A stretch of DNA of 64,000 nucleotides from Tistrella mobilis (GTDB lineage Bacteria > Pseudomonadota > Alphaproteobacteria > Tistrellales > Tistrellaceae). Shown here piece by piece: positions 1,240-61,927 of this stretch (positions are counted from its first letter, which is position 1; each line of letters starts with the position of its first letter). The notes under the pieces are model-generated. The model saw only the letters and a program-made list of their open reading frames with translations, had not been told where the DNA came from and searched no databases. Position numbers and translations under genes: made by a program. The stretch lies in NCBI RefSeq assembly GCF_039634785.1, contig NZ_JBBIAB010000003.1, positions 201,724 to 265,723 of the forward strand, written 5' to 3'.

Positions 1240-2367
1240 CAGTCGAGATCGCCGACATCGCCGGAGGTGCCCTCGACCCTGGCCGACAGCGCCGCCTGCA
1301 TGAAGGCATCCAGATCGCCGTTCAGCACCGCCTGGGTGTTGCCGGTCTCCACCCCGGTGCGCAGATCCTTGACCATCTGGTAGGGGTGCAGCACGTAGGA
1401 GCGGATCTGGTGGCCCCAGCCGATATCGGTCTTGGCATCCGCCTCGGCCTGGGCCTTTTCTTCCCGCATCCTGAGTTCACGCTCGTAAAGGCGTGCCTTC
1501 AGCATGCCCATGGCGGTGGCGCGGTTCTTGTGCTGCGACCGGTCCTGCTGGCACTGCACCACGATGCCGGTGGGCACATGGGTGATGCGGATGGCGCTGT
1601 CCGTCCGGTTGACGTGCTGGCCACCGGCACCCGAGGCCCGGTAGGTATCGATGCGCAGATCCTTGTCCAGGATCTCGATGTCGATCGAGTCGTCGATCAC
1701 CGGATAGACATGGACGGCGGCGAAGCTGGTCTGGCGCCGGGCCTGGCTGTCGAAAGGCGAGATGCGCACCAGCCGGTGGACGCCGGTCTCGGTCTTCGCC
1801 CAGCCGAAGGCGTTCTGGCCCTTGATCAGCAGGGTGGCCGATTTGATGCCCGCCTCTTCGCCGTCGGTCTCTTCGACCAGTTCGGTCTTGTAGCCATGCG
1901 ATTCCGCCCAGCGTGTATACATGCGCAGCAGCATCAGCGCCCAGTCCTGGCTTTCGGTGCCACCGGCGCCGGCATGGACTTCAAGATAGCTGTCATTGCC
2001 GTCGACCTCGCCCGAGAGCAGGCTTTCGACCTTGAGCTTCAGCAGCTCGTCGAGCAGCCGGCCGAGCGAGGCCTGGGCCTCGTCGACGACGCTTTCATCG
2101 TCTTCCATCTCGCCCAGTTCGGCGAGTTCCAGATCGTCGCGGAACGCCTGTTCCAGCTTGCGATAGCGCTCGATGGCGCCTTCCAGCTGGGTGCGTTCGC
2201 GCATCACCTTCTGCGCGCGCGCCGGATCATCCCAGAGCTTCGGATCTTCGGAGAGGGCGTTCAGCTCTTCGAGCCGGATGAGCGCGTTCTCCCAGTCAAA
2301 GATACCTCCTCAGCAGACCGAAGGTCTGCTCGATCTCGTCGGCGAGCGACTTGATCTCGGCGCGCAT
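1239..2367 (-). CDS. prfB: Peptide chain release factor 2 (programmed +1 frameshift)
   Basis: RF2 recognises UGA and UAA and hydrolyses peptidyl-tRNA. The first 23 codons start at ATG 2365-2367 (GGGAGG upstream) and run into an in-frame TGA at 2296-2298. A +1 shift joins them to the main frame, giving about 375 residues. The anticodon-mimic tripeptide SPF (in RISPFDSQ) and the catalytic GGQ (in [10 protein letters not shown]) are both present. The shift site is the canonical CTT TGA C preceded by AGGAGG, so low RF2 should favour frameshifting and autoregulate the gene. It lies downstream of mrcA and directly upstream of a coupled hydrolase gene. Confidence 0.97.
2295..2310 (-). promoter_or_regulatory. 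prfB programmed +1 frameshift signal
   Basis: On the minus strand the sequence reads AGGAGGTATCTTTGAC: an internal Shine-Dalgarno-like AGGAGG, a three-base spacer, the slippery codon CTT and the stop TGA followed by C. This matches the well-known RF2 autoregulatory frameshift site. Decoding CTT and then GAC restores the frame of the downstream RF2 body. Confidence 0.97.
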
Positions 2368-2391
2368 ACGCACGTCCTCCCGTTGATGATG

Positions 2392-2416
2392 ATGCCGGCG
2401 CGGATGGCGCCGGCAT
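2392..2416 (-). terminator. Hairpin between mrcA and prfB
   Basis: A perfect 10-bp stem (ATGCCGGCGC and its complement) with a 5-nt loop lies between the mrcA start side and the prfB start, just upstream of the prfB leader. There is no T-tract on either side, so it may be a weak or Rho-assisted terminator, or a processing hairpin, rather than a full intrinsic terminator. Confidence 0.35.
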
Positions 2417-2436
2417 GGATATCGCGGTGACCCCGA

Positions 2437-4977: not shown

Positions 4978-5180
4978 CGGCTGTGCAACGCCGCGGGCCA
5001 GGGCCGGCGGCTCCCATGTGGTTGACGGGCGGCGCCAGCGGACGGATCCGTCCCTGGTCGCGGAGCCGGAGTGTGGCCGCGCGCGGCCCTGGCGTCAATC
5101 GCAGGGGTACCATCCCCGCCCTGCAAGCCACGCAAATGACACGGCATCGGAAGGGTTTGGCAGGCCCGGCCACCGCCTGC

Positions 5181-5226
5181 GATCAGAGAGGGGCCAGGAT
5201 CAGAGAGGGGCCGGGGTCAGAGACGG
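5181..5226. repeat. 17-bp tandem duplication at the 3' end of amiC
   Basis: Two near-identical 17-bp copies (GATCAGAGAGGGGCCAG at 5181-5197 and one-base variant at 5198-5214) are followed by a partial third copy. The third copy contains the amiC stop codon at 5217-5219. The array looks like a local slippage duplication of the gene's terminal codons into the downstream spacer. Confidence 0.8.
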
Positions 5227-6608
5227 CTCCAGGTCTGTTCGGCGGCGAAGAACTGATCGACGGCACCGACGATGCTGCGGGCCAGCTTCGCCCGATGGGC
5301 GGAATCCTGCAGCACTTTTTCATCCTGCCGGTTGGACAGGAAGCCGGTCTCGATCAGCACCGACGGCATGTCGGGCGCCTTGAGCACCGCAAAGCCGGCC
5401 GAACGCACCGGCTTGGTCAGCAATTCGGTATGCGGCTGGACCTGGCCGATGACATGGCCGGCAAACCGCGCCGACAGGTTCATGGTCTCGCGCCGGGCCA
5501 GATCGATCAGGATCGAGGTGACCTCGGCGCTTTCGGTCGAAAGATCGACGCCGGCGATCAGGTCGGACTTGTTTTCGCTGTCGGCCAGCTGGGCGGCGAC
5601 ACCGTCCGAGGCGCGTTCCGACAGCGTGTAGATCGACAGGCCCCGCGTGCGCGGGTTCTGCACCGAATCGGCATGGATCGAGATGAACAGCTCCGCCTGG
5701 GCGGCACGGGCGATGGCGACCCGGTCTCGCAGCCGGATGAAGATGTCGCGATCGCGGGTCAGCACCGCCTTGTAGCGGCCGGTCTTTTCAAGCTCCTGCG
5801 CCAGCGCCTTGGCCATGGCCAGCGTGATCGACTTTTCCTGCACGCCGGTGATGCCGATGGCGCCGGGATCGATGCCGCCATGGCCGGCGTCAATGGCGAC
5901 GATCCGCCGGCCATCGGTCCGGGCCCGCGGCCTGGCCGCATCGGGCAGGATCGGCGCGGCGGCGACCGCCGCCTGCCCCGCAGGCGGCTGCGGGGCGGCC
6001 GCGACCTTGGTGCCGTCGAACCGGTCTTCCGGCTCTCCCTTCAGGGTGGTCCGGGCGAAGGATTGCGCCGAGGTGCGCGACAGATCGACCACGAAACGCG
6101 GCGGCAGACCGTCCTGCGCCGGCAGCACGAACATCGAATCGATCTGCGACGGCTGGGACAGGTCGAGCACCATGCGATAGACGCCGGGTTCGAACAGGCC
6201 GACGCGATAGCGCGCGATCAGCCCGGCGCCCGAATTCTCACCCTTGTCGAGGATCTGCCAGTCCAGATTGCGGAAGTCTATCACCACCCGGTCGGGGCCC
6301 GACAGGGTGAAGGCCCTGAAATCCACCCGACGGTCCAGATCGATCACCAGCCGGGTCTTGTCGGGATGCATGCCGAACCGCAGGCCGACCGCGCGGGCGG
6401 TTTCGGCGGCCACCGCCTCTTCCGGACCGACGCCCGGCAGCGGCCCTGCAATCACCGCGACCAGCGCCAGCAGGCAGATCACCGCCCAGCCCATGGCGCG
6501 TTTCGCCATCCGGCCCAGCCGTGCGGCAGCCCGCCCCGGCCGGAACGGCGGAGCGGCGGAGACGCGGCAAAGATGGTCGGCGGTCTGGCGAATGGCAGGC
6601 GCGGACAT
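5217..6608 (-). CDS. amiC: N-acetylmuramoyl-L-alanine amidase with AMIN domain
   Basis: This zinc amidase cleaves the bond between muramic acid and the stem peptide during cell separation. The start at 6606-6608 (MSAPAIRQ, 463 residues) has a GGAG at a suitable distance; a later ATG at 6509 (MAKRAMGW) is an alternative and begins closer to the hydrophobic export signal. An N-terminal AMIN domain is followed by an Amidase_3 domain. Zinc ligands appear in AIDAGHGGID, VQEKSI and SIHADS, and the catalytic glutamate in LIETGFLSN. A strong promoter lies upstream at 6718-6747. It is probably cotranscribed with mrcA across a 240-bp spacer. Confidence 0.93.
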   Translation of the reverse strand: MSAPAIRQTADHLCRVSAAPPFRPGRAAARLGRMAKRAMGWAVICLLALVAVIAGPLPGVGPEEAVAAETARAVGLRFGMHPDKTRLVIDLDRRVDFRAFTLSGPDRVVIDFRNLDWQILDKGENSGAGLIARYRVGLFEPGVYRMVLDLSQPSQIDSMFVLPAQDGLPPRFVVDLSRTSAQSFARTTLKGEPEDRFDGTKVAAAPQPPAGQAAVAAAPILPDAARPRARTDGRRIVAIDAGHGGIDPGAIGITGVQEKSITLAMAKALAQELEKTGRYKAVLTRDRDIFIRLRDRVAIARAAQAELFISIHADSVQNPRTRGLSIYTLSERASDGVAAQLADSENKSDLIAGVDLSTESAEVTSILIDLARRETMNLSARFAGHVIGQVQPHTELLTKPVRSAGFAVLKAPDMPSVLIETGFLSNRQDEKVLQDSAHRAKLARSIVGAVDQFFAAEQTWSRL

Positions 6609-6717
6609 GTGACGGCTCCAGGAGGCGTCGGCGGCTGATCCTCTGACCGGCCGCGCCGCCCGAAAACCACCCGCGAACGGGCAGCTCCGATGACACCGCA
6701 ACCAGCGACTCCTTCGT

Positions 6718-6747
6718 TTTATAGGCGGAAGTCGCCCAATCTTTCAA
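6718..6747 (-). promoter_or_regulatory. Predicted sigma-70 promoter for amiC
   Basis: On the minus strand TTGAAA (6742-6747) and TATAAA (6718-6723) are separated by 18 bp, which is close to consensus. Transcription would start near 6710, about 100 bases upstream of the chosen amiC start. Confidence 0.65.
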
Positions 6748-6921
6748 TGCGTTTATCCATGTTGTTGGCACCGGGGGTGAACTTGCACGAAGGGTTGTGG
6801 CCGCGGTGTGACTCAAGCCGCCGCCATGCCCGCCCCGAAACGGCTGTCGCAGGACGCGCCCGGGGTGGCCGCATGCCTGCGCAACACGCGCTTGCCCTGT
6901 CGCCGGATTGCAACAGCGCGA

Positions 6922-6951
6922 TTGTGGAAGGGCCGCGACCTGTTCTATAGT
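6922..6951 (+). promoter_or_regulatory. Predicted promoter for rne
   Basis: TTGTGG (6922-6927) and CTATAG (6945-6950) are separated by 17 bp and lie upstream of rne on its strand. A start near 6957 would give rne a 5' leader of roughly 640 nt. Long leaders used for autoregulation are known for RNase E in enterobacteria. Confidence 0.5.
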
Positions 6952-6957
6952 GCGGCC

Positions 6958-7598
6958 GCGCGTTCCGCTTCGGTCACCGGCCCTGCCCCGCCTGGGACAG
7001 GATCGACCACCGGATGGGAGGCGCCGGAATTCCGTATGGCCGGAGGCATCGGACCGAGTTGATCGGACCGCGCCGCTCCGGGAGGGAGCATCCCCCGGCC
7101 GACGGTTGAACCCGCCGCGAGGCAGGACGACGACGACCCAGGGCATGCCGGCCACGCGACAAGCGGGCCGGGCCGGCCGGCGGAGAGCGAAATCCTTGTG
7201 ACGCGGCGGCGGAGCGGGGTGTGCGGCAATTACGCGGCGCGCCCCTCCGACCAACAAGGAACGGTCATGAACGACGCGCGCGATTTCGCGCAGAGCGTCG
7301 GTCGCACGGGCCCTGAGGCGTCTTCCGATGCCACATCCGTCTGAGCGTCCGGTGCATAGCCTGAGAGGCTTCGACTGCCGCCGATCGCTCGGCGGTATGC
7401 GTTCCGTCGTCTTCGTATCGTTCCCCTGCCATCCGACACCGGGCCTGACCGTGCCGCCTGCCGCCACCGCCCTGACCGGCGCCCGCGCAGCCGACGGCCG
7501 CAACCCCGCGCGTCGTTCCTCCACATCCTGCCCGACGGATCTGCGCCGCCTGACGAAGGCCGGCGCCCGTTGCGGTCATATCCGGAGTTCCACGCTCG
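6958..7598 (+). promoter_or_regulatory. Long GC-rich 5' leader of rne
   Basis: This stretch of about 640 bases between the predicted promoter and the rne ATG contains no convincing long gene. Several overlapping open frames on both strands have no family motifs and look like GC-rich chance ORFs. It is the expected place for structures through which RNase E controls its own mRNA. A short translated leader ORF may lie within it at 7267-7344. Confidence 0.45.
7267..7344 (+). CDS. Possible 25-codon upstream ORF in the rne leader
   Basis: An ATG at 7267 is preceded by AAGGA with a short spacing, which is one of the better ribosome-binding sites in this region. The frame encodes 25 residues beginning MNDARDFAQSVGRTG and stops at TGA 7342-7344, about 255 bases before rne. 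No function is recognisable. It may be a leader peptide linking ribosome occupancy to rne mRNA stability, or simply chance. Confidence 0.3.
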   Translation: MNDARDFAQSVGRTGPEASSDATSV

Positions 7599-10500
7599 AT
7601 GACGAAGCGTATGCTGATCGACGCGAACCACCCCGAAGAAATGCGGGTGGTCGTCACCAACGGCAACCGGCTTGAAGAATTCGATTTCGAAACCTCGACC
7701 AAGAAGCAGCTGAAGGGGAATATCTATCTCGCCAAGGTGACCCGGGTGGAGCCCTCGCTCCAGGCCGCGTTCGTGGATTACGGCGGAAACCGGAACGGTT
7801 TCCTGGCCTTCAGCGAGATCCATCCCGACTACTTCCAGATCCCCCTGGCCGACCGTGAGGCCCTGGTCCGCGAGGTCGAAAAGGCGGCGCGCGAGGATGC
7901 CGAGCGCGAAGCCCGCGCCGATGCCGGCGAAGGCCCCGAGATCGAAGAGGTCGGCGGTTCCGACGTCGACGACATCGCGGCCGGCGGCGCCAGCCGGCGG
8001 CGGCTGCAGCCGCACCGCCAGTACAAGATCCAGGAAGTCATCAAGAAGCGGCAGCTGATCCTGGTCCAGGTGGCCAAGGAAGAGCGCGGCACCAAGGGCG
8101 CGGCCCTGACCAGCTATATTTCGCTGGCCGGCCGCTATTGCGTGCTGATGCCCAACACGCCCAATGGTGGCGGCATCTCGCGCAAGATTTCGGATGCCCG
8201 CACCCGCAAGAAGCTGCGCGAAACCCTGACCGAGCTGGGCACCCCGGCCGGCATGAGCGTGGTGCTGCGCACCGCCGGCGCCGAGCGCACCAAGACCGAG
8301 ATCAAGCGCGACTACGAATATCTCTCGCGGCTGTGGGACGACATCCGCGAGCGGACCCTGTCGTCGCGCGCCCCGGCCCTGATCTATGAAGAGGCCGACA
8401 TCATCAAGCGGTCGATCCGCGACATCTATTCCAACGACATCGACGAACTGCTGGTCGAGGGCGGCGACGGCTATCGCGCCGCGAAGGAGTTCATGCGGAT
8501 GCTGATGCCCAGCCGCGCGCGGCTGGTGAAGCAGTATGGCGACCGCATCCCCCTCTTCCACCGCTATCAGGTCGAAACCCAGCTCGCCTCGATGCACTCC
8601 CCCACCGTGCGCCTGCCCTCGGGCGGCTATGTGGTGATCAACCAGACCGAGGCGCTGGTCGCGATCGACGTCAATTCGGGCCGCTCCACCCGCGAGCGGA
8701 ACATCGAAGAGACCGCGCTCAAGACCAATCTGGAAGCTGCCGACGAGGTCGCCCGCCAGCTGCGCCTGCGCGACCTGGCCGGGCTGATCGTCATCGACTT
8801 CATCGACATGGACGACCGCAAGAACAACCGTGCGGTCGAACGGCGCCTGAAAGAGGCGATGAAGGCCGATCGCGCCCGCATCCAGCTGGGCCGGATCAGC
8901 GGTTTCGGCCTGCTGGAACTGTCGCGCCAGCGGCTGCGCCCGTCGCTGATCGAGGCCAGCACCATGCAGTGCCCGCATTGCGGCGGCACCGGTCTGGTCC
9001 GTTCGGTGGAAAGCACCGCCCTTGCCGCCCTGCGCGCGGTTGAAGAGGAAGGCATCCGCGAGCGCACCGAGGAGCTGGTGCTGCGCGTGCCGACCGAGGT
9101 TGCGCTCTATATCTTCAACCACAAGCGCGACATGCTGGCGGATATCGAGGCCCGCTATGTCTTCCGCGTGCTGGTGGAAGCCGCCGACAACCTGACGCCG
9201 CCCACGCCTTACGAGCTGGAGCGCACCCGCCAGCGCAAGGAAGGCGAGATCCCCGAGCGCCCGGCCGGCAGCGAGCGCCCGGTGACCGCCGAATCCTCGG
9301 CCGCCGCCGCCGATGCGGATGCCGCGCGCATCGCCGCCGAGGTCGCCGAAGCCGAGGCCGAGGAAGAGGCGATGGCCGAGGCAGAGGCCGCCGCCGAGGC
9401 CCGGAGCGAGGCCGAAGCCGAGACCCGGCCCGAGGCCGACAGCCAGAGCGAGGAAGAGCGGAACCGCCGCAAGCGGCGCCGCCGGTCGCGCCGGCGGAAG
9501 CGTCGTGACGACGAGACCCAGTCGACCGCCGAGGGCGAGGATCAGGCCGAGGACCAGGACGAGGACGGCGAGGCCGAGGGTGACACCGAGGCCGAAGCCG
9601 AGAGCACCGAAGACGCCCGGAATGCCGACGACCGGAATGGCGAGGAGAACGGCCGCCGTCGCCGTCGGCGTCGCCGGCGTCGCCCGGGCAATGGCGAGGC
9701 CCGCACCGAGGCCCAGACCACCGACGGGGAGCAGACCACTGACGGGGAGCAGGCCACCGACGAAGAGCAGGCCGGCGACGAGGCCGAGAACGCCGAGGCC
9801 GAGACTGCCGAGGCGGTGAGCGAAACGGAAACCCCGGCAGTCGAAGCGCCTGGCGCGGAGAGCGAGGTCGTCGAGCCCGTGGCCGAGGTGGCCGAAGCCG
9901 AAGAGGGTCGCGGCCGTCGCCGCCGCCGTCGTCGGCGGCCGGGTGAGGTCGAGGCGGTCGCGGCCGTCGAAGCCGATGCTGCCCCCGCTCCGGTGAGCGA
10001 CGAGGCGCCCGCGAGCGAGGCAGCTTCCGTGAGCGAGCCGACTTCGGTGAGCGAAATGGGGCCGGTAAGCGACGAGACGCCCGCCGAAGCGGCACCTGCC
10101 GACACCGCAGCGGTCGACCTGGCACCGGCTGAAGAGGCCGTGGCCGCCGACGCCCCCGCCGCGGAGCCCGAGGCGCCGGTCAGCGAGCCCGCCGCCGAAC
10201 CCGAGCCCGCCACCGAACCCGAGATGGTCGGTGCGGATCTGGTGCCCGAAGCCGATGCCGTGGTCGAGGCCGATGCGGTGGTTGCCGCCGAAGAGCCGGT
10301 GGCCGCACCGGAGAAGCCGAAGCGCCGTCGCAAGGTGAAGGCCGAGACCGAAGCCGAGGCGCCCGCCGAGGCCGAGGCTGAGGCCGCGCCCAAGCCGCGC
10401 CGCCGCCGCAAGGTGGCCGAGACTGCCGCCGACGCCCCGGCCGAAGCCGAGGCGGTGGCAGAGGCGGCCCCCGCCCGCAAGCGGGCGACGCGCGCCAAGG

Positions 10501-10970
10501 CGACGACGGCCAAGGCTGCGACCACCAAGGCCGCCGCGGCCAAGACCACCCGCGCCCGCAAGGCGAAGGCGGTCGAGGGGGGTGAGCCCGTCGAGGCTGC
10601 CGCCGAGGCACCGAAGCCGCGCCGCCGCCGCAAGGCGGAGCCTGCGGTGGAGGCGGCCGAGCCGGCCCTGGTCGTGACCGCCGTGGAAACCGGTGCCGAG
10701 CCGCCGGTGATCGACGGGCCGGCCGCCGCCGCGGTGGCCGAAGCCGCCGAAGCCCCGGCCGCCCCGCTGGAGCCGCCCTTCCGCGAGGAAGCGGCCGCCA
10801 AGGCGACGCCCGAGGCCCCCGAGGCGGAGACCGGCACCGAGGCGGAGACCGGCACCGGGGCCGAGCCGCAGCCGGCCGGCGATGACGAGCCGGCCGTGAC
10901 GGTGATCGAGGCCGAAGGCGCGCCCGCGCGCCCGCGCCGCGGCTGGTGGGCCTCTCGCGGCCGCAGCTGA
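7599..10970 (+). CDS. rne: Ribonuclease E
   Basis: This 1123-residue endoribonuclease handles mRNA decay and rRNA/tRNA processing. The catalytic half has an S1 domain (GNIYLAKVTRVEPS onward) with the long acidic insert usual in alphaproteobacterial enzymes. Metal-binding aspartates appear in AIDVNSGRST (about residue 356) and IDFIDMDD (about 400), and the Zn-link motif CPHCGGTG at about 458. From about residue 570 the protein is low complexity: Ala/Glu-rich acidic stretches alternate with Arg clusters and repeated KPRRRRK-like blocks. This is typical of the disordered RNA- and degradosome-binding arm. A GGAG lies slightly far upstream of the ATG. Confidence 0.96.
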   Translation: MTKRMLIDANHPEEMRVVVTNGNRLEEFDFETSTKKQLKGNIYLAKVTRVEPSLQAAFVDYGGNRNGFLAFSEIHPDYFQIPLADREALVREVEKAAREDAEREARADAGEGPEIEEVGGSDVDDIAAGGASRRRLQPHRQYKIQEVIKKRQLILVQVAKEERGTKGAALTSYISLAGRYCVLMPNTPNGGGISRKISDARTRKKLRETLTELGTPAGMSVVLRTAGAERTKTEIKRDYEYLSRLWDDIRERTLSSRAPALIYEEADIIKRSIRDIYSNDIDELLVEGGDGYRAAKEFMRMLMPSRARLVKQYGDRIPLFHRYQVETQLASMHSPTVRLPSGGYVVINQTEALVAIDVNSGRSTRERNIEETALKTNLEAADEVARQLRLRDLAGLIVIDFIDMDDRKNNRAVERRLKEAMKADRARIQLGRISGFGLLELSRQRLRPSLIEASTMQCPHCGGTGLVRSVESTALAALRAVEEEGIRERTEELVLRVPTEVALYIFNHKRDMLADIEARYVFRVLVEAADNLTPPTPYELERTRQRKEGEIPERPAGSERPVTAESSAAAADADAARIAAEVAEAEAEEEAMAEAEAAAEARSEAEAETRPEADSQSEEERNRRKRRRRSRRRKRRDDETQSTAEGEDQAEDQDEDGEAEGDTEAEAESTEDARNADDRNGEENGRRRRRRRRRRPGNGEARTEAQTTDGEQTTDGEQATDEEQAGDEAENAEAETAEAVSETETPAVEAPGAESEVVEPVAEVAEAEEGRGRRRRRRRRPGEVEAVAAVEADAAPAPVSDEAPASEAASVSEPTSVSEMGPVSDETPAEAAPADTAAVDLAPAEEAVAADAPAAEPEAPVSEPAAEPEPATEPEMVGADLVPEADAVVEADAVVAAEEPVAAPEKPKRRRKVKAETEAEAPAEAEAEAAPKPRRRRKVAETAADAPAEAEAVAEAAPARKRATRAKATTAKAATTKAAAAKTTRARKAKAVEGGEPVEAAAEAPKPRRRRKAEPAVEAAEPALVVTAVETGAEPPVIDGPAAAAVAEAAEAPAAPLEPPFREEAAAKATPEAPEAETGTEAETGTGAEPQPAGDDEPAVTVIEAEGAPARPRRGWWASRGRS

Positions 10971-13801: not shown

Positions 13802-15178
13802 GTGCGCTCAAGCTTCCTCCGCATCGCCGTCCTTATCTGCTTCCTGATCGTGTCGGGGATCGGTGCCGTGGGCCCCGCTTCGGCGCAGCAGCGAAGCCTG
13901 TCCTTCATCCGCGACGCCGAGGTGGAACATACCATCCGGCAGATAGCGACTCCACTGTTCAAGGCGGCCGATCTCGACCCGAACGCGATCGACATCCACC
14001 TGATCCGCGACAACGCCATCAACGCCTTCGTCGGCGGCGGCATGCACCTGTTCATCTTCACGGGGCTGCTGATGGCCAGCGACAACCCCAATCAGATCGC
14101 AGGCGTGATCGCACATGAAACCGGCCATATCGCCGGCGGCCATCTGTCGCGCATCGGCGGCGCCGTCGAGATGGCGACCGCCCAGGCCATCGCCTCGGCC
14201 CTGCTGGGGCTTGCGATCGGTGTCGCCGGCGGCAGCGCCGATGCCGGCATGGCGATCGCGATGGGCGGCCAGCAGATGGCCCAGCGCGGCATGCTGAGCT
14301 TCAGCCGCGCCCAGGAGAATTCGGCCGATCAGGCGGGCATCCGCTTCCTGCACCGGGCGGGCGAATCCGCGCTGGGCATGCTCCAGTTCTTCGAGAAGCT
14401 CGACACCCAGAACGCGCTGATCGGCAGCCGCCAGAGCCCCTATCTTTCCACCCACCCCATGGCCGCCGACCGGGTGCGGGTGGTCGAGAACGTGGTGGCG
14501 CAGGAAAAGGGCGTCACCGCCGAGGCGACGCCCGCCCAGCAGATGGCCTATGACCGGATGATCGCCAAGCTGCGAGGCTTCCTGGACCCGCCGGGCCGCA
14601 CCTTCGCCGCCTACAAGGCCGACGATCCCTCGGTGCCCGCACGCTATGCCCGCGCCATCGCCTATTATCGCCAGGCCGATCTGGACCATGCCCTGCCGCT
14701 GATCCGCGGGCTGATCGCCGAACAGCCCGACGACCCCTATTTCCACGAGCTGGAAGGCCAGATGCTGTTCGAGAACGGCCGGGTGGCCGAGGCGATCAAA
14801 CCCTATCGGCTGGCGGTGGAAAAATCCGACCGCGCGCCGCTGATCGCGGTCGGCCTGGCCCAGGCGCTGATCGAGACCGGCACCGATGCCGCCTATGCCG
14901 AGGCCCAGGCGCTGCTTGAAAACGCGACCGCGAAAGACCGCGACAACGCCACCGCCTGGCGGCTGCTGGGCATCGCCTATGGCCGCGCCGACCGCATGCC
15001 CCAGGCCTCGCTGGCCCTGGCCGAATACAACGCCCAGATCGGCCGCTGGGACGAGGCCGAGGTCCAGGCGACCCGCGCCCGCGACAACCTGCCGGTCGGC
15101 TCCCCCGGCCAGCTGCGCGCCGATGATCTGGCCGAATACGTCAAGCGCCAGCGCGAGGAAGCCCGCGCCAACCGCTGA
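13802..15178 (+). CDS. M48-family periplasmic metalloprotease with TPR-like C-terminus
   Basis: This protein of 458 residues resembles BepA/YfgC-type chaperone-proteases that act on outer-membrane proteins. The GTG at 13802 gives a clean signal peptide ending ASA before QQR; an in-frame GTG at 13778 is the alternative. The zinc motif HETGH is at about residues 105-109 inside IAHETGHIAGGH, followed by the typical SRAQENSADQAG segment that supplies the third ligand. The C-terminal third has alternating Ala/Leu helices consistent with TPRs. A DsbA-like gene follows 65 bases later, so the pair may serve envelope protein quality control. Confidence 0.9.
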   Translation: MRSSFLRIAVLICFLIVSGIGAVGPASAQQRSLSFIRDAEVEHTIRQIATPLFKAADLDPNAIDIHLIRDNAINAFVGGGMHLFIFTGLLMASDNPNQIAGVIAHETGHIAGGHLSRIGGAVEMATAQAIASALLGLAIGVAGGSADAGMAIAMGGQQMAQRGMLSFSRAQENSADQAGIRFLHRAGESALGMLQFFEKLDTQNALIGSRQSPYLSTHPMAADRVRVVENVVAQEKGVTAEATPAQQMAYDRMIAKLRGFLDPPGRTFAAYKADDPSVPARYARAIAYYRQADLDHALPLIRGLIAEQPDDPYFHELEGQMLFENGRVAEAIKPYRLAVEKSDRAPLIAVGLAQALIETGTDAAYAEAQALLENATAKDRDNATAWRLLGIAYGRADRMPQASLALAEYNAQIGRWDEAEVQATRARDNLPVGSPGQLRADDLAEYVKRQREEARANR

Positions 15179-15243
15179 GGCCGCGGGGCACCTGCCCTGC
15201 CCTCCCGAACCACCCCACTCCGTTCCGAAAGACACCAGACCCC

Positions 15244-16002
15244 ATGTCGAAACTCCTCGTCCCGGCCCTGGCCCTGATCCTGGGTGCTGCCGGCGGTGCC
15301 GCCGCGACCCTGGTCATCGACCGCATCCACGCCGTGGACCCGGCATCGGAAGCCCGTGCCGGCGAGGATATGGTCCGGGCCCTGCTGGCGCGCGAACCCG
15401 AACTGGTGGTGGAAAGCATCCGGGCCTGGCAGGCGAAGCAGCAGACCGCGGAACTGGAAGCCCAGGGCTCGGCGATCCGCGACAGCGAGGCCGCCCTCGT
15501 CGCCGATGGGCGCGACCCGGTCGTCGGCCCGGCCGATGCGGCGGTGACGGTGGTCCAGTTCTTCGACTATCGCTGCCCCTATTGCCGCCGCGCCATGGGC
15601 ACGGTGGACCAGCTGATCGAAAAGCGCGACGACATCCGGGTGGTCTACAAGGAATTCCCGATCCTGGGCCCGGATTCGCTGGTCGCCGCCCGCGCGGCCC
15701 TGGCCGTGAACCAGGTGGCCCCCAAGGCCTATCCTGAAATCCACACCGCGCTGATGACCCAGCAGGGCAGCCTGACCGAAGACCGCGTGCTCGCCATCGT
15801 CGCCGATCGGGGTGTCGACGCCGAGGCGGTCAAGGCACGCATGCACGCGCCCGAGACCGAGGCCCATATCCGCGATACCATGGACCTGGCCCGCAAGCTC
15901 GGCATCGGCGGCACCCCGGCCTTCGTGATCGGCGACACCCTGCTGCCGGGCGCCGTGGAACTCGACGCCCTGGACCGTGCGGTCGAGGCGGCGAAGGGCT
16001 GA
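15244..16002 (+). CDS. DsbA-family thiol:disulfide oxidoreductase
   Basis: This 252-residue protein has an N-terminal hydrophobic signal or anchor (about residues 4-26), a helical linker and a thioredoxin-fold DsbA domain. The redox motif CPYC at residues 111-114 sits in FFDYRCPYCRRA, and the cis-proline region is GGTPAFVIG. The arrangement resembles the Com1/BdbD-like DsbA proteins common in alphaproteobacteria. It probably forms or isomerises disulfides in envelope proteins and may share a transcript with the M48 protease. The ribosome-binding site is weak. Confidence 0.92.
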   Translation: MSKLLVPALALILGAAGGAAATLVIDRIHAVDPASEARAGEDMVRALLAREPELVVESIRAWQAKQQTAELEAQGSAIRDSEAALVADGRDPVVGPADAAVTVVQFFDYRCPYCRRAMGTVDQLIEKRDDIRVVYKEFPILGPDSLVAARAALAVNQVAPKAYPEIHTALMTQQGSLTEDRVLAIVADRGVDAEAVKARMHAPETEAHIRDTMDLARKLGIGGTPAFVIGDTLLPGAVELDALDRAVEAAKG

Positions 16003-16037
16003 CCTGCCACCACGCTCACGCCCGGGAGGTGCTCCTC

Positions 16038-17330
16038 ATGTTGACCGCCATCACGCTCGAAAACTTCAAGAGCTACCGGTCGGCACGCCTCCCGCTGGCA
16101 CCGCTGACCGTGTTGATCGGCGCCAATGCCTCGGGCAAGAGCAATGCCGTGGAGGCGATGCGGCTGCTGTCGTGGCTGGCTCAGGGGCAGAAGCTGTCGG
16201 CCATCCGCTATGCCATTCATGACGGCGAGCAGGTGGTGCGGGGCAAGGTCCAGGATCTGGCCTACTGCGAAGGTGACAGCTTCGGCATCGGCTGTGAGAC
16301 CGAGGATGGCGATTTCAACCGGCTGAGCATGACCATCTCGCTGCGCGAGGACGGGCTTCACCTGACAGGGGAGCAGATTGCCGGCATCCGCCTGCCGCTC
16401 TATGACCTGGACCAGCCGTCCACCGGCCGCAGCACCGATGTCCGGGTCGCCTATGACAATTTCAGCCCGGGTGGCAGGAAACCCCATGTGGTGTGCAGCG
16501 ACCAGATGGCGATTTTCACCCAGCTGACCAGCCCGGCCACTTTCGACGCCAAGCACAGGAGATCGCGCGAGACCATTCCGAAGATCGCCCGCGCCTATGA
16601 AGCGAGCCTCGGGTCGATGCTGTTCCTGGATCCGGTCCCGGCACGTATGCGAGACTACAGCTTCCCCGGCGAGCACCGGCTAAATGGTGATGGCAGCAAT
16701 ATTTCCTCGGTTCTCTGGGACCTGACGGAAGGCGCACGAAGTACAGACGAGGCCACAGCCGATGTGCTCGGCTTCGTCAAGAGCCTGCCTGAGCAGAACA
16801 TCGCCGGCTTCGATTTCCTGAAGGAGCCCCGGGGCGGGGTCATGATCCAGCTGGAAGAGACGTTCGGCGCACAGACGCGGAGGTATGATGCCTCGCTGCT
16901 GTCTGACGGCACATTGCGCGTTCTCGCCATCGCCGCCGCCATGCTGTCGGCGCAAAGCGGCAGTCTGGTGGTGATCGAAGAGATCGACAACGGCGTCCAT
17001 CCGAGCCGCGCCCGCCACCTGCTGGACAGCATCCGCAACCTCGCCCGGCGGCGGAACCTGCGGGTTCTGCTCTCGACGCACAATCCCGCCCTGCTGGATG
17101 CCCTGCCGGACGAAGCCGTTCCCGATGTGGTGTTCTGCTATCGCGACCCCGAAGACGGATCGAGCCGGCTGGTCCGCCTGGACGATCTGCCGACCTATCC
17201 GGAACTCGTCGCACAGGGCAGCCTGGGTGATCTGGCCACCAGCGGAGCGCTGGAGCGGGCCGCGAAGATCCGGATCGACGAGGCCACCCGCAGAAGCTTG
17301 GCCCTCGCCTGGATGGATCGGCTGGGTTGA
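16038..17330 (+). CDS. AAA/SMC-like ATPase (AAA_21 type), putative defence ATPase
   Basis: The 430-residue protein begins MLTAITLENFKSYR, the N-terminus typical of RecF/SMC/OLD-like ATPases. Walker A is GANASGKS (residues 28-35). An ABC-like signature LLSDGTLRVLAIA comes late, then Walker B LVVIEEIDNGVHPSR and the switch histidine in LLSTHNPALLDAL. No TOPRIM nuclease domain is visible after the ATPase core, so it is not a full OLD nuclease. GGGAGG precedes the ATG at 16038 by 8 bases. Ten bases separate it from a PIN-domain gene, so the two are almost certainly cotranscribed. A role in phage defence or DNA surveillance is inference. Confidence 0.88.
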   Translation: MLTAITLENFKSYRSARLPLAPLTVLIGANASGKSNAVEAMRLLSWLAQGQKLSAIRYAIHDGEQVVRGKVQDLAYCEGDSFGIGCETEDGDFNRLSMTISLREDGLHLTGEQIAGIRLPLYDLDQPSTGRSTDVRVAYDNFSPGGRKPHVVCSDQMAIFTQLTSPATFDAKHRRSRETIPKIARAYEASLGSMLFLDPVPARMRDYSFPGEHRLNGDGSNISSVLWDLTEGARSTDEATADVLGFVKSLPEQNIAGFDFLKEPRGGVMIQLEETFGAQTRRYDASLLSDGTLRVLAIAAAMLSAQSGSLVVIEEIDNGVHPSRARHLLDSIRNLARRRNLRVLLSTHNPALLDALPDEAVPDVVFCYRDPEDGSSRLVRLDDLPTYPELVAQGSLGDLATSGALERAAKIRIDEATRRSLALAWMDRLG

Positions 17331-17340
17331 GGACCGGGCC

Positions 17341-17826
17341 ATGCGGACCGTCATCCTGATCGACACCTCCGTCTATCTCAACATCCTCAAGGTTCCGGGT
17401 TTCGACCAGCAGCAACAGACCGTCCACACAGATTTCAGACAATACCTGTCCGGAAATGCCCGTTTCCTCCTGCCGATGGCCACGATCTGGGAGACAGGCA
17501 ATCACATCGCCCATCTGGGCGACGGCCGACTGCGGCGGCAACATGCTTTGCGTTTCATCGAAGACGTTCGTGGTGCGCTGTCGGGAGATGCCCCCTATAC
17601 GGCGACCCACTTCCCCGAGCGCGACGAGTTCCTGAACTGGCTGACGGACTTCCCCGATCATGCCCAGCGGAACAAATCGGACGACAGGACCAGCGAAGGC
17701 ACCAGCCTCGCCGACCTGTCCCTGATCAAGGAGTGGCAGCGGCTTTGTACGCTGGATCCCAGGGCGCGTGTCGTCATCTGGTCGCTCGACCGCGACCTTC
17801 TGGGCTACGACCGGAAACCCGACTGA
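17341..17826 (+). CDS. PIN-domain-like protein, putative nuclease partner of the ATPase
   Basis: This 161-residue protein starts MRTVILIDTSVYLNIL. The acidic residues are spaced like a PIN active site: Asp8 (IDTS), Glu51 (ATIWETGNH), Asp125 (GTSLADLSLI) and Asp150/152 (WSLDRDLLG). PIN domains are metal-dependent ribonucleases found in toxins and RNA processing. No separate antitoxin gene is present; the partner is the upstream ATPase, 10 bases away. Base composition appears less GC-rich than the flanks, which hints at acquisition. It ends only four bases from the convergent gph stop codon. The PIN call rests on motif spacing alone. Confidence 0.72.
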   Translation: MRTVILIDTSVYLNILKVPGFDQQQQTVHTDFRQYLSGNARFLLPMATIWETGNHIAHLGDGRLRRQHALRFIEDVRGALSGDAPYTATHFPERDEFLNWLTDFPDHAQRNKSDDRTSEGTSLADLSLIKEWQRLCTLDPRARVVIWSLDRDLLGYDRKPD

Positions 17827-17830
17827 GGCC

Positions 17831-18517
17831 TCACACCCGCGGCACGGCCACAGCGATCCCCCGCGCCGCCAGCAGGCGCGGGGCGATGGTGGCGAGATCG
17901 GGGAAGCGGTCGGCGATGGCATCGGCGCCCTCGGCCATGGCGAGGGGGCCGTGGCCCCAGCCGGCGAAGATGACCGGCATGCCGGCGCCCCGGGCCGAGA
18001 CGACGTCGTTGCGGTGGTCGCCCACCATCACCGCCGGGGCGTGGTCGAGGCCGGCCGCCTGCAGCGTCAGGGTCAGGTGGCGCGGATCGGGTTTGGAGAC
18101 CGGGAAGCTGTCGCCGGCGCCGATGCCGTCGAAACGCGACAGCAGGCCCAGCCCGTCGAGCAGGGTGCGGGTGGCGGCCGCCGGTTTCTTGGTGCACAGC
18201 AGCACCGCCCAGCCGGCAGCGCGGAAGGCATCCAGGGTTTCGGGCACGCCCGGAAAGGCCGTGGTCGCCTCGGCGGCATGGGCGGTGTAATCGGCGAGGA
18301 AGCGGTCATGCGCCGCCTCGTCCATCGGCCGGTCGCGGGCAGCCAGCACCCGTTCCACCAGCTTGCGCGGCCCGTCGCCCAGATAGCCGGCGATTTCAGG
18401 ACCCGACACCTCGGGCAATCCCAGCGCCGCCATCAGCCGGTTCATCGCCGCCGCGAAATCCGGCACGGCATCGACCACGGTGCCGTCGAGGTCGAGAAGA
18501 AGGGCGGGACGGGTCAT
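17831..18517 (-). CDS. gph: HAD-family hydrolase, phosphoglycolate phosphatase-like
   Basis: This protein of 228 residues starts at MTRPALLLDLDGTVVD, with the nucleophile Asp9 and acid/base Asp11. Later HAD motifs are the Thr in VLLCTKKP, the lysine in SKPDPRH and the acidic motif GDHRNDVVSA. Length and the helical cap after the first motif fit Gph, which dephosphorylates 2-phosphoglycolate. Related HAD enzymes such as pyrophosphatase PpaX look similar, so the substrate is not certain. It is transcribed convergently with the ATPase-PIN cassette. Confidence 0.87.
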   Translation of the reverse strand: MTRPALLLDLDGTVVDAVPDFAAAMNRLMAALGLPEVSGPEIAGYLGDGPRKLVERVLAARDRPMDEAAHDRFLADYTAHAAEATTAFPGVPETLDAFRAAGWAVLLCTKKPAAATRTLLDGLGLLSRFDGIGAGDSFPVSKPDPRHLTLTLQAAGLDHAPAVMVGDHRNDVVSARGAGMPVIFAGWGHGPLAMAEGADAIADRFPDLATIAPRLLAARGIAVAVPRV

Positions 18518-18674
18518 CGGCCGAAGACTCCGGCTTTGGGGGGAATTGAGAGGCGCCGCAGCATAGCAGCCGCCGCCCGATGCCGCGACAGCCGGTTCCC
18601 CGCGCCTGCGGCCGGCTGACGCAGGCGATGACGCCCCCTGTCCCCCGCCCGCCGCAGACTGCATACTCGCCGCC

Positions 18675-19208: not shown

Positions 19209-19271
19209 CTGTCCCATCAACGGCCCGTGCTTCAGACATATGTCCGAGGTGCCGGTCGTGAACGCGACGGC

Positions 19272-20204
19272 TCAGGCCGCCCCGAAGCCGCGCCCTGGCA
19301 GATGATCCATCGGCATTTTCTCCCGCGCCGCATCCAGCAGGCGCAGAAAGCGGGCGGCAACGCTGGTCAGCAGTTCCGGATCGCGGCAGAGCACCCCCAC
19401 CTCCAGCACCGGCATCGGCCCGGGCAGGTTCAGGGCACGCAGGCGGGTGCGCATGCCGGGCACGGCATAGATCACCTCGGACCAGACGCTGATCAGGTCG
19501 GTTTCGGTCGCAAGCTCAAGAAACAACATCGCCGAGCTGCAGCGAAGCACGCTCGCCGGGGACGGCAGACCATGCGCTGCGAAGATACCGGCGATCAGGC
19601 TGGAAGGCTCGCCGCCCGGATCCCAGCTCAGCCACCGCTCGGCACCAAGATCGGCCAGTGAGGTGACACCGGCCAGCCGATGGCCGTCTCGCACCGCGGC
19701 AAAGGTCGGCACGGTGTAGAGCGGGCGCCAGTGGAAACGCGCCTCGGCCGGGGGAGTGGTCAGCGAGACCAGGGCCAGATCGATGGTGCCATCGGCAAGC
19801 CCCGCGTCAATGGCTGCCGGCCGCAATTCCACCACCGATACCGTCACCTGCGGTTCATCGCGGATGAAGCGCTTCAAGGCCGCGCCCACCGGTCCCGTGG
19901 CGGTGACCGGGGTGACCGCCACAGTCAGGCTGCCGCGGGCGATGCCGAGCAGAGCATCGATTTCCTCGGCGGCATGGCGCAGTTCCTGTTCCACCACCCG
20001 GGCATGTTTCACCAGGCTGCGGCCATAGCGGCTGAGCCGGACACCGGTGGTTGCGCGCAGCAGCAGCGGCGCGCCCAGGCCTTCCTCAAGCTCACGCAAC
20101 GCTTTACTCACCGCCGGCTGGCTGAGATGCAGCCGGCGGGCAGCCTCGTGGATGCTGCCGGTCTCGGACACCGCGAGCAGCGCCCGCAACTGATGCAGTT
20201 TCAT
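19272..20204 (-). CDS. LysR-family transcriptional regulator
   Basis: This protein of 310 residues has an N-terminal winged HTH (MKLHQLRALLAVSETG, then HLSQPAVSKALRELEEGLG) and the usual effector-binding C-terminal domain. AAAGGTGG precedes the ATG at 20204. It is divergent from an MFS transporter gene followed by an M20 amidohydrolase, so it most likely activates that unit in response to the transported compound. A T-N11-A type site lies in the shared intergenic region. Confidence 0.92.
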   Translation of the reverse strand: MKLHQLRALLAVSETGSIHEAARRLHLSQPAVSKALRELEEGLGAPLLLRATTGVRLSRYGRSLVKHARVVEQELRHAAEEIDALLGIARGSLTVAVTPVTATGPVGAALKRFIRDEPQVTVSVVELRPAAIDAGLADGTIDLALVSLTTPPAEARFHWRPLYTVPTFAAVRDGHRLAGVTSLADLGAERWLSWDPGGEPSSLIAGIFAAHGLPSPASVLRCSSAMLFLELATETDLISVWSEVIYAVPGMRTRLRALNLPGPMPVLEVGVLCRDPELLTSVAARFLRLLDAAREKMPMDHLPGRGFGAA

Positions 20205-20236
20205 GGGCCACCTTTCCCCGCAGCGCCGCGGCAATG

Positions 20237-20251
20237 ATAACCAACGGCTAT
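20237..20251. promoter_or_regulatory. Candidate LysR-type binding site
   Basis: ATAACCAACGGCTAT is an imperfect dyad containing the T-N11-A core typical of LysR regulators. It lies 33 bases upstream of the LysR start and in the divergent promoter region. Confidence 0.4.
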
Positions 20252-20264
20252 CTCCATGAAAATA

Positions 20265-20280
20265 TGTGATCAGGATCACA
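20265..20280. promoter_or_regulatory. Near-perfect CRP-type palindrome
   Basis: TGTGATCAGGATCACA has exact half-sites TGTGA and TCACA spaced by six bases, flanked by AT-rich sequence on the left. This is the consensus for cAMP-CRP sites. It sits about 108 bp upstream of the MFS start, beside the LysR-type site. Catabolite or cAMP control of the transporter/amidohydrolase unit is therefore plausible. Confidence 0.6.
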
Positions 20281-20387
20281 TCCGGCATTGGCCGCAAACT
20301 GCGCGGATGTCGACGCCCCTCCCCGCCCGACATGTGCCCCGCCCCCCTGTATCTGCTCCTGTCACGATGCTCAACGGGATTACGCCC

Positions 20388-21701
20388 ATGCCAGACACCC
20401 ATGTCGCGGCCGCGGACCGCCTCGCCGCGTCACCGGCCACCACCACCGCCGGACGGCACGGCACCCGCCGTGTGGTGGTCGCCACCACGCTCGGCAACGC
20501 CTTCGAGATCTTCGATTTCACCGTCTTCAGCTTTTTCGCAACCCTCATCGGCCGGCTGTACTTCCCGTCGGACAGCGAATACGGCTCGCTGCTGATGGCG
20601 GTCGCAAGCTTCGGAATCGGCTTCGTGATGCGTCCGCTGGGCGGGGTGGTGATCGGCGCCTATGCCGACCGCGCCGGGCGCAAGGCGGCGCTCACCCTCA
20701 CCATCGCGCTGATGGCGCTGGGCACCGCCATCATCGGCTTCGCCCCCACCTACGCGCAGATCGGCATCTTCGCACCGCTGTTGATCGTGACCGGCCGGCT
20801 GCTTCAGGGCTTCTCCGCCGGGGGAGAGATCGGCGCCTCGACCACTTTTCTGATGGAATCGGGCACGATCGGCCGGCGCGGCCGGATGGTGTCGTGGCAG
20901 CTGGCGAGCCAGGGTGCCGCAGCACTGGCGGGTGCTGCCTGTGGCGTGCTGCTCTCCCAGGCCCTGCCTGCCGACAGCTTCGAAAGCTGGGGCTGGCGCC
21001 TGCCCTTCATCCTGGGCCTCGCCATCGCCCCGGTCGGCATCTGGATCCGCCGGAGCCTGGATGAAACCCACAGCGCCCCCATGCCCGACCACTCCCCGAT
21101 CGCCCTGGTCTTCCGCGATCATCGCCGGACGCTGCTGCTCGGCACACTCGCCATGGTCAGCGGCACCGCCACCATGTACATCGCCGTGTTCTACATGCCG
21201 ACTTTCCTGATCCGCGTGATGGGCATGGCACCGGCCGCAGCCTTCGCAGCAACCGTGGTCTCGGGCCTGACGCTGATGGTGGTGTCACCGCTCGCCGGCC
21301 TGGCCGCCGACCGGCTGCCCAGGCGCAAGCCGCTGGTGCTGGCGGCATGGATCGCCGGTGGCATCGCGATCTGGCCAGGCTTCGCCGCGATCACCGGTGG
21401 TGCTGGCATCGTGACGGCCATGGCGGTGGTGGCGATCCTGGCCGCCTGCCTCGCCGCCGGCTCCAGCGCCTGTTTCCTGTTGCTGATGGAAGCTTTCCCG
21501 CGGCCGGTGCGGGTCACAGGCCTGTCGGTGATCTACAGCCTGGGTGTGGCGATCTTCGGCGGATTGGCGCAGTTCATCGTCACCTGGCTGCTGGCGGTGA
21601 CCGGCGATGCCATGGCCCCGGCCTGGTACATGACCGCCTGCGCCGTGATCTCGGTCCTCGCCCTGCTGGGCTTCCGTGAACAGGCCCGCCGGGCCGACTG
21701 A
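20388..21701 (+). CDS. MFS transporter, metabolite:H+ symporter type
   Basis: This protein has about 437 residues and twelve predicted membrane segments. The signature of the MHS subfamily (ProP, ShiA, KgtP relatives) is visible: GNAFEIFDFTVFSFFATLI near the start, the loop motif DRAGRKAAL between segments 2 and 3, and GRLLQGFSAGGEIGAS in segment 4. It should import a small organic acid or betaine with protons. MPDTHVAA at 20388 is chosen as the start; ATG 20367 is possible. It is followed 45 bases later by an M20 amidohydrolase that probably acts on the imported compound. Confidence 0.88.
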   Translation: MPDTHVAAADRLAASPATTTAGRHGTRRVVVATTLGNAFEIFDFTVFSFFATLIGRLYFPSDSEYGSLLMAVASFGIGFVMRPLGGVVIGAYADRAGRKAALTLTIALMALGTAIIGFAPTYAQIGIFAPLLIVTGRLLQGFSAGGEIGASTTFLMESGTIGRRGRMVSWQLASQGAAALAGAACGVLLSQALPADSFESWGWRLPFILGLAIAPVGIWIRRSLDETHSAPMPDHSPIALVFRDHRRTLLLGTLAMVSGTATMYIAVFYMPTFLIRVMGMAPAAAFAATVVSGLTLMVVSPLAGLAADRLPRRKPLVLAAWIAGGIAIWPGFAAITGGAGIVTAMAVVAILAACLAAGSSACFLLLMEAFPRPVRVTGLSVIYSLGVAIFGGLAQFIVTWLLAVTGDAMAPAWYMTACAVISVLALLGFREQARRAD

Positions 21702-21746
21702 TCCCTGCCCTCTTCCGCACGACCCATTATCGGAAAGCCGCCCGTC

Positions 21747-22934
21747 ATGTCTGATACCGCCTGCTTCGCCCGCCTGCCCGATCTGGATCCGGATGCGCCG
21801 GATTTCATTGCCCTGCGCCGCCATCTCCACGCCCATCCGGAACTGGGTGCAGACGTGCCCGAAACGGCAGCCCTGGTCGCCGCCCTGCTCCGCCGCTGGG
21901 GCTATGAAGTGCATGAAGGGATCGGCGGCCAGGGCGTGGTCGGGCGGCTGCGACAGGGCACAGGGCCGCGGTCGATCGGTATCCGCGCCGACATGGATGC
22001 GCTGCCGATCGCCGAGGCGACCGGTCTTGAATACGCAAGCCGGGTACCGGGGGCAATGCATGCCTGCGGCCATGACGGACATACCGCCATCCTGCTCGCC
22101 GCCGCCTGGCGGCTCGCCCGGAGCTGCCGTTTCGACGGCACGCTGGTGCTGATCTTCCAGCCCGATGAAGAGGGGCTGACGGGGGCGAAACGCATGGTCG
22201 AGGACGGGTTGTTCGACCGCTTTCCAGTGGATGCGGTCTATGCCCTGCACAACGGCCCGGGCATTCCCGTGGGCACGATCGTGGCGGTGGAAGGGCCGAC
22301 CAGCCTTGCCTCCGACATCGCCACGATCACATTGACCGGCCGGGGCGGTCATGGCGCGATGCCCGACAAGGCGCGAGATCCGGTGGTGGCTGCGGCAGCC
22401 ATCGTGATGGCGCTGCAGACCGTGGTTTCACGCAATCTGCCGGCCGGAGAGACCGGCGTGGTCAGCATCGGGGCCATCCATGCCGGCACCACCCACAACG
22501 TGATCCCCGAGACTGCGGAGCTGAAACTCAACATCCGCTCGGCCGATGCCGGCATCCGGGGGCAGATCGAGGCACGGATCCGCACGATCGTGGCGGGCCA
22601 GGCCGCCGCCTTCGACGTGACCGCTGCGATCGACTATCGCCATCTGGTCCCCGCCGTGGTCAACACACCCGACGAGACAGCTCTCCTCCGCCAGGTGGCG
22701 GCCGGGATCGTCGGCGAAACCAATGTGCTCACCACCCTGCCGGGTATTGCCGGCAGTGAAGATTTCGCCTGGATGGCGGCCGGGCGACGTGCCTGCTATG
22801 CGGTCATCGGCAACGGGGTCGGATCGGCGGGCGGCTGCATGATCCACAACCCCGGCTACGATTTCAACGACGCCGCCCTGGAGACGGGCATATCCCTTTG
22901 GGTGAATCTTGTCGAAGAAATTCTCGCCATTTGA
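21747..22934 (+). CDS. M20-family amidohydrolase (hippurate hydrolase-like)
   Basis: This 395-residue metal-dependent amidohydrolase removes the acyl group from N-acyl amino acids such as hippurate or N-acetyl-amino acids. The motifs are RADMDALPI, HACGHDGHTA (Cys107, His109 and following His as metal ligands), QPDEEGLTGAKRM with the catalytic Glu, and a final histidine in CMIHNPGYDFND. The dimerisation domain occupies the middle third. It is cotranscribed with the MFS transporter, so uptake followed by hydrolysis is the likely logic. The exact substrate is unknown. Confidence 0.9.
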   Translation: MSDTACFARLPDLDPDAPDFIALRRHLHAHPELGADVPETAALVAALLRRWGYEVHEGIGGQGVVGRLRQGTGPRSIGIRADMDALPIAEATGLEYASRVPGAMHACGHDGHTAILLAAAWRLARSCRFDGTLVLIFQPDEEGLTGAKRMVEDGLFDRFPVDAVYALHNGPGIPVGTIVAVEGPTSLASDIATITLTGRGGHGAMPDKARDPVVAAAAIVMALQTVVSRNLPAGETGVVSIGAIHAGTTHNVIPETAELKLNIRSADAGIRGQIEARIRTIVAGQAAAFDVTAAIDYRHLVPAVVNTPDETALLRQVAAGIVGETNVLTTLPGIAGSEDFAWMAAGRRACYAVIGNGVGSAGGCMIHNPGYDFNDAALETGISLWVNLVEEILAI

Positions 22935-22948
22935 TATGCAAAGGTCAT

Positions 22949-22974
22949 TGCCGGGTCATCGTCATCACCCGGCA
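22949..22974 (+). terminator. Hairpin downstream of the amidohydrolase
   Basis: An 8-bp perfect stem (TGCCGGGT and ACCCGGCA) with a 10-nt loop lies 15 bases after the stop codon. No T-tract follows, so termination efficiency is doubtful. The rest of the spacer to 23216 is unusually AT-rich and holds no gene. Confidence 0.4.
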
Positions 22975-23216
22975 GATGATCACGCTCAGGCAACAGATGA
23001 CACTGAATCCATGAGATGTCCTCGTTTTGCAAGTATTTCATTCACGTATTTTCAACTTTTGAACGGTAATTTCTGATCAGCCGCGATATGATTCTGGAGG
23101 CCACTGTCATCTCCGGTTGACGAAGAAGATGTGGGACATATCGCCGAACCGCCGTGGTAACTTGCCCCCCACATGCGGTCTCGGCCCTCCCACGCCATGC
23201 GGAAGGGTGAGATGCG

Positions 23217-60644: not shown

Positions 60645-61886
<1,242 letters not shown>

Positions 61887-61927
61887 CGGAGGTGGTCCTC
61901 AACTGCGAAAGGTGGCGTGGCGCTCTT

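Follow-up and report, generated by a model that had tools for sequence, protein, structure and literature searches.

An OLD-type ATPase and a predicted PIN-domain nuclease of Tistrella mobilis form a pair belonging to the candidate antiviral system PDC-M07

Two adjacent genes of Tistrella mobilis, encoding an OLD-type ABC ATPase and a putative PIN-domain nuclease, are, on sequence grounds, a member of PDC-M07, a candidate system of PADLOC-DB v2.0.0: both proteins match at full length, and the genes occur in the same order. The pair lies in what we call the window, the whole stretch of 64,000 nucleotides that was analysed. Considering a defence role alone, we regard it as highly probable that the pair is a mobile antiviral defence module. 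That in such a module the PIN protein is the nuclease that acts as effector, under control of the ATPase, seems to us fairly probable, and caging and release of the PIN protein by the ATPase is a tentative addition to that picture.

The sequence-only reading had recognised no named system in this pair, and here it is superseded by the PADLOC catalogue, from which nothing distinguishes the window pair apart from its standing alone between housekeeping genes. The PDC models, which denote candidate systems, originate in a guilt-by-embedding preprint (Payne et al. 2024, doi 10.1101/2024.01.29.577857); PMC12988326, which cites and describes that work, states that validation is pending for most PDC systems. 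We found neither a published test of PDC-M07 nor its name in papers, in a search whose coverage stopped short of most subscription journals and of bioRxiv. The features of the locus are as follows.

15244..16002, + strand: dsbA-like gene, left flank, outside the module (Pfam DSBA, E 1.7e-28)
16003..17826, no strand: 1824-bp segment missing from T. mobilis KA081020-065 (BLAST and direct comparison with the empty site, NC_017958.1)
16024..16037, + strand: Shine-Dalgarno-like GGAGGTG (from 16026) ahead of the ATPase ATG (from sequence)
16038..17330, + strand: PDC-M07A, OLD-type ABC ATPase, 430 aa, no TOPRIM (ATG 16038, stop 17330)
17341..17826, + strand: PDC-M07B, predicted PIN-domain nuclease, 161 aa (ATG 17341, stop 17826)
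17831..18520, - strand: gph-like HAD hydrolase, right flank, convergent, outside the module (Pfam HAD_2, E 2.7e-26)

The locus and its two proteins

The two genes run in the same direction with 10 bp between them, and the PIN stop lies 4 bp from the convergent gph stop (17831). These distances and the gene positions reproduce those first read from the sequence, as does the isolation of the pair between dsbA-like and gph genes: Pfam agrees on both flanks, where the neighbours are an M48 peptidase, a DSBA-type thioredoxin and a gph-type HAD hydrolase. The pair had also been described as less GC-rich than its surroundings, and it is so by GC (64.3% for the ATPase and 60.7% for the PIN gene, versus 68.5% for the M48 peptidase, 70.4% for dsbA and 73.2% for gph) and by GC3 (0.81 and 0.77, versus 0.87-0.88 for the same three genes). 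Some further window genes (amidohydrolase, LysR) have GC3 as low as that of the pair. A promoter scan of 15100-18000 found no promoter, and hence none belonging to the pair. Given this and the short gap of 35 bp between dsbA and the ATPase gene, the pair is likely expressed by read-through from the dsbA side. An Rfam scan of the locus returned no RNA element, which makes a retron-type RNA component unlikely.

We rejected a reading of the 64-kb window as a defence island, as a PADLOC scan of its 43 other proteins matched only an AbiEii-like protein and an RtcR regulator, besides cross-hits to ABC transporters and a single weak match to a cyclase. The AbiEii-like protein (50159-50953, E 4.9e-75) lies 32 kb from the pair, and the RtcR regulator (E 6.2e-248) lies beside an RtcB-like gene, recognised by eye, in an RNA-repair operon (60648-63687). 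Also by eye, the region 1242-10967 encodes RNase E, release factor 2 and a class A penicillin-binding protein. The syntenic replicon of T. mobilis KA081020-065, NC_017958.1 (1.13 Mb), is filed as a plasmid; "chromid" would be the better name.

The ATPase matches PDC-M07A over residues 1-429 of 430 (E 2.9e-187). Pfam assigns it AAA_21 (E 2.1e-30) and AAA_15 and finds no TOPRIM, fused at the C-terminus or elsewhere, in its 430 residues. Its Walker A (GANASGKSN), signature (LLSDGTLRV), Walker B (VVIEEIDNG) and H-loop (STHNPALLD) motifs are intact, as they are nearly everywhere among 30 aligned loci. An AlphaFold2 model has a mean pLDDT of 75.8, with poor stretches mid-protein and near the C-terminus, and shows no long coiled coil. 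It scores about the same (tied, Z 18.5 to 17) against the heads of Rad50, SMC and PtuA, and Foldseek ranks retron/Septu PtuA chains first. The initial description of an OLD/SMC-like ATPase without TOPRIM thus stands. Two other PADLOC models also match: the HEC-01 ATPase (E 6.7e-37) and the AriA profile (E 3.8e-30), the latter a general AAA_21-like profile that PDC-M07A far outscores. Lone ATPase relatives with housekeeping genes on either side and no PIN partner occur at three loci (L062, L063 and L064, in G459, G433 and G425). Their Walker B is altered (VVDDID or VVMDGID) and the H-loop histidine is gone (VGRDPALLD), so that they are apparently ATPase-dead, domesticated copies.

The second protein matches PDC-M07B over residues 1-159 of 161 (E 7.6e-66). 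Searched by itself, it has no match in Pfam or NCBIfam, and a profile of the protein finds only chance-level matches among the sequences of solved structures. At the family level, 9 of 19 members match Pfam PIN and 8 of 19 match PIN_12. Its AlphaFold2 model is confident (pLDDT 90.1); VIA-align places VapC20 first (Z 13.3, 2.2 A over 125 residues) with other VapC/PIN proteins next, and the Foldseek ranking opens with VapC, FitB and further PIN proteins, with weak E-values (best 1.8e-3) and a probability of 1.0. The family-level matches and the predicted fold together settle its identity as a PIN-fold nuclease, and so the structural check proposed for the earlier PIN assignment came out in its favour. 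The acidic residues put forward with that assignment fared less evenly: D8, E51, D125 and D150 form a quartet conserved in intact relatives, but D152 is replaced by G, H or Q in divergent family members and so lies outside the conserved active site.

An empty site and the age of the pair within Tistrella

In T. mobilis KA081020-065 (NC_017958.1), the dsbA stop runs directly into the gph side and 1824 bp are absent. CTGA stands at both junctions (15999-16002 and 17823-17826), leaving the ends of the segment uncertain by 4 bp. With three Tistrella genomes compared, a loss by deletion through microhomology and a gain by insertion would both account for the difference; no transposase gene was seen within the 1824-bp segment.

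A second Tistrella species (G001) carries the pair at the same place, with a 77-bp frameshifting deletion in the PIN gene. Between G001 and the window, the ATPase gene has a dN of 0.010 and a dS of 0.148 (ratio about 0.07), and dsbA has 0.015 and 0.196, indicating that purifying selection has acted on the ATPase over a period similar to that of its flank. The presence of the pair in G001 at the same place, with flank-like divergence, led us to rule out a recent, strain-specific acquisition. The pair looks old within the genus, being common to two species and missing from one strain. Thus the "inserted" cassette of the sequence-only reading holds insofar as one strain has a clean empty site, but not as a fresh insertion, since two species carry the pair. 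Identity to G001 climbs to 0.98-0.99 across about 17.0-18.5 kb, which may reflect a recombination origin of the segment, but gph is also well conserved between G001 and T. mobilis KA081020-065.

Beyond gph, a block comprising a LysR regulator, an MFS transporter and an M20 peptidase/amidohydrolase (19210-23200) occurs only in the window genome, and T. mobilis KA081020-065 and G001 share different DNA at that site. A strain-specific block beside the pair marks the neighbourhood as a site of gene turnover.

Linkage, context and spread of relatives

PIN relatives were sought in genome contigs, in relatives and the class, in the phylum, on plasmids and in viral contigs. At every locus read with a PIN match (about 30), an ATPase gene adjoins the PIN gene upstream, often with an overlap of a few bases; the exception is G035, where the ATPase is reduced to an N-terminal piece beside the PIN gene. 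Approached from the other gene, all six ATPase matches in the phylum sample with E < 1e-100 and kept ATPase motifs adjoin a PIN gene. The divergences of the two proteins are correlated (Mantel r 0.82, p 0.0005; 30 loci, one duplicate included). Rare adjacency of homologues would have spoken against a functional cassette; instead the two are essentially always adjacent, and this adjacency, with the full-length matches to curated models, indicates that the pairing is not due to chance.

Relatives are embedded in several kinds of defence locus. On pAQU1 of Photobacterium damselae and on a Vibrio campbellii plasmid, the order is hsdM-hsdS-ATPase-PIN-hsdR, with each gene overlapping the next; as close relatives, these two pairs were counted as one lineage. 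Three relatives lie in BREX loci. In a Thiomonas BREX operon (L008), confirmed by profile scan, the order is brxA-brxB-brxC-ATPase-PIN-pglX, followed by a HEC-01 pair, pglZ and brxL. By eye, a second locus (L013) has downstream genes in common with L008, and a third (L059, in G660) has a brxC-like end upstream of the pair and a pglX-like gene downstream. Elsewhere, a type III R-M methyltransferase gene lies upstream of the pair (L007), LmuA and LmuB (Lamassu-type) genes lie nearby (L004), the contig is prophage-like with integrase-, HNH- and terminase-like genes (L043), or a terminase-like gene and a PDC-S06 protein are present (L044). Of the copies on genome contigs, about half sit by themselves among housekeeping genes, where there is no R-M or BREX gene for them to guard; this, like the lack of a defence island around the window copy, speaks against the antiviral reading.

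The PIN model matches 6 of 387 class genomes and 10 of 397 phylum genomes, and plasmid-borne copies include one on a 9-kb mobilisable plasmid. Phage records gave no match, and a DNA search of E. coli genomes with the Photobacterium pair was likewise empty. With the Tistrella ATPase, one gammaproteobacterial and one magnetococcal relative share 66% identity, one from Chlorobiaceae 62% and an actinobacterial one 61%, as against 56-62% for other alphaproteobacterial ATPases. Identities distributed in this way form a pattern of horizontal spread. Such a patchy distribution in the class, with copies in R-M operons, BREX operons and prophages, is not that of a pair inherited vertically with no link to defence, an outcome that would have counted against the initial reading.

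Catalysis has been lost one-sidedly at some loci. On plasmid pANACY.01 of Anabaena cylindrica PCC 7122 (L037, 10001-10480), a PIN gene encoding D8Y stands beside an ATPase with intact motifs, and close relatives of this PIN protein on other cyanobacterial plasmids retain Asp8. In G437 (L050/L057), the PIN protein carries E51V and D125S, is fast-evolving and is 25% identical to the window PIN; its ATPase is well conserved (E 5e-186) with motifs intact. Both genes are disrupted at L013, which may reflect a metagenome assembly error. Loss of the PIN protein first is expected of a costly effector, and also in a toxin-antitoxin pair.

Proposed mechanism, rival explanations and known systems

What we established is the gene pair with its intact active-site motifs, the strict linkage of the two genes, their mobility and their place within defence operons; the folds are those of predicted models. 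From analogy with related systems, we infer sensing, caging, a trigger, an RNA target and growth arrest. The OLD-type ATPase would dimerise or oligomerise, as related ATPases do, keep the PIN protein inactive and sense infection. The trigger, perhaps a phage protein that knocks out restriction or BREX, would alter the state of the ATPase, and this would free or activate the PIN nuclease. Host RNA would then be cut by the nuclease, with tRNA or the sarcin-ricin loop of rRNA as the likeliest substrate, and translation and phage production would stop in an abortive infection. RNA as the target is assumed from the modelled fold, and the likeness to VapC20 would allow sarcin-ricin loop cleavage. 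The tRNA- or RNA-cutting model follows from analogy with PARIS, whose AriB cuts tRNAs (PMC12409363), and with Septu, which cuts tRNA-Tyr and requires both ATPase and nuclease (PMC13096335). In addition, systems of other architecture, DS-3 and DS-5, have been shown to need their PIN domains for defence (PMC13092281). Taken together, PDC-M07 might be an immune system set off by infection, with an ATPase of the PARIS/Septu type controlling a PIN RNase that attacks tRNA or the ribosome, a proposal that we put forward as possible.

Several features of the pair would also suit a toxin-antitoxin-like addiction module, in which a VapC-type PIN toxin and an ATPase antitoxin stabilise their element without specific phage sensing. 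VapC toxins are the best structural matches of the PIN protein, copies are carried on plasmids (the 9-kb mobilisable one among them), and the PIN protein decays ahead of the ATPase. We nevertheless consider such a module unlikely: nothing like VapB accompanies the PIN gene, type II antitoxins do not resemble an ATPase of 430 aa that keeps every catalytic motif, placement inside hsd and BREX operons points to immunity, and the clean empty site in one strain means that loss is tolerated, at least there. Those same operons could instead suggest an accessory, inactive alone, that acts by modifying R-M or BREX or by backing them up, in keeping with the backup-effector proposal of PMC12839542. This is quite unlikely in our view, as the copies in the window and at L003, L005, L006, L010 and L012 have no recognisable R-M or BREX gene alongside, and partners vary between hosts, so that dependence on any one of them is impossible.

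Turning to the target, the ATPase might load on phage DNA like SMC/Rad50, with the PIN protein cutting the DNA there. The ATPase fold matches Rad50/SMC heads as well as PtuA, and the wider PIN superfamily includes FEN-like nucleases, which cut DNA. Yet the nearest solved folds of the PIN protein are RNA-cutting VapC toxins, the ATPase model lacks a long coiled coil, and the analogues PARIS and Septu cut tRNA, making DNA targeting very unlikely. We give the smallest chance to the idea that the Tistrella copy is a decaying passenger, silent or non-functional and being lost. The broken PIN gene of G001, the absence of the pair from T. mobilis KA081020-065 and the failure of the 15100-18000 scan to find a promoter of its own would fit such decay, but in the window strain neither frame is interrupted and every catalytic residue is kept, and the ATPase dN/dS of about 0.07 between two species argues for its maintenance.

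We therefore return to an antiviral module with a PIN effector under ATPase control. At 1.8 kb and with clear predicted active sites, the pair is compact and readily testable, and ready-made comparisons exist in the naturally empty site and in G001, whose PIN gene is broken. If defence is confirmed, the ATPase-plus-tRNase plan of PARIS and Septu would extend to a PIN effector, and PDC-M07 calls in genome surveys would gain a mechanism. If the proposed mechanism is true, TOPRIM and HNH would be joined by PIN as the third nuclease fold on one ATPase plan, and the recurrent loss of PIN catalysis beside an intact ATPase would imply that the ATPase retains a role without its effector.

Among known systems, VapC toxins share with PDC-M07B the PIN fold and acidic quartet, a likeness at the level of fold only, but identity is about 13% over aligned residues and the partner here is an ATPase. 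Unlike in VapBC, no small VapB-type antitoxin gene lies next to the window PIN gene, whose sole partner encodes the 430-aa ATPase. OLD nucleases with fused TOPRIM, such as GajA of Gabija, differ in that the window ATPase ends at 430 aa with no TOPRIM. HEC-01, a PADLOC candidate, has a related ATPase and co-occurs with PDC-M07 in one BREX operon (L008), whereas its partner, HEC-01B, is from another family. Septu and retron Ec78 PtuAB resemble the pair in having a separate nuclease and an ATPase, PtuA, to which the window ATPase fold is near (Z about 18), but PtuB is an HNH nuclease and the second gene of the pair encodes a PIN protein. Septu and retron Ec78 PtuAB are each reported to cut tRNA and to depend on both activities. 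PARIS (AriA and AriB) combines an OLD-type ATPase without a fused nuclease with a separate small nuclease, a layout that the window pair may share, and the trigger and abortive outcome that we propose for PDC-M07 would resemble those of PARIS; its effector AriB, however, is a TOPRIM protein rather than a PIN. By their published description in a 2026 BREX survey (PMC12839542), the OLD-ABC/PIN dyads of BREX share with the window pair an OLD-ABC ATPase coupled with a PIN endoRNase that replaces TOPRIM. The survey views these dyads as backup suicidal effectors in BREX, whereas the window copy has no adjoining BREX gene. As the OLD-ABC/PIN pairing is already described there, the window pair is not a new kind of system but belongs to a known kind.
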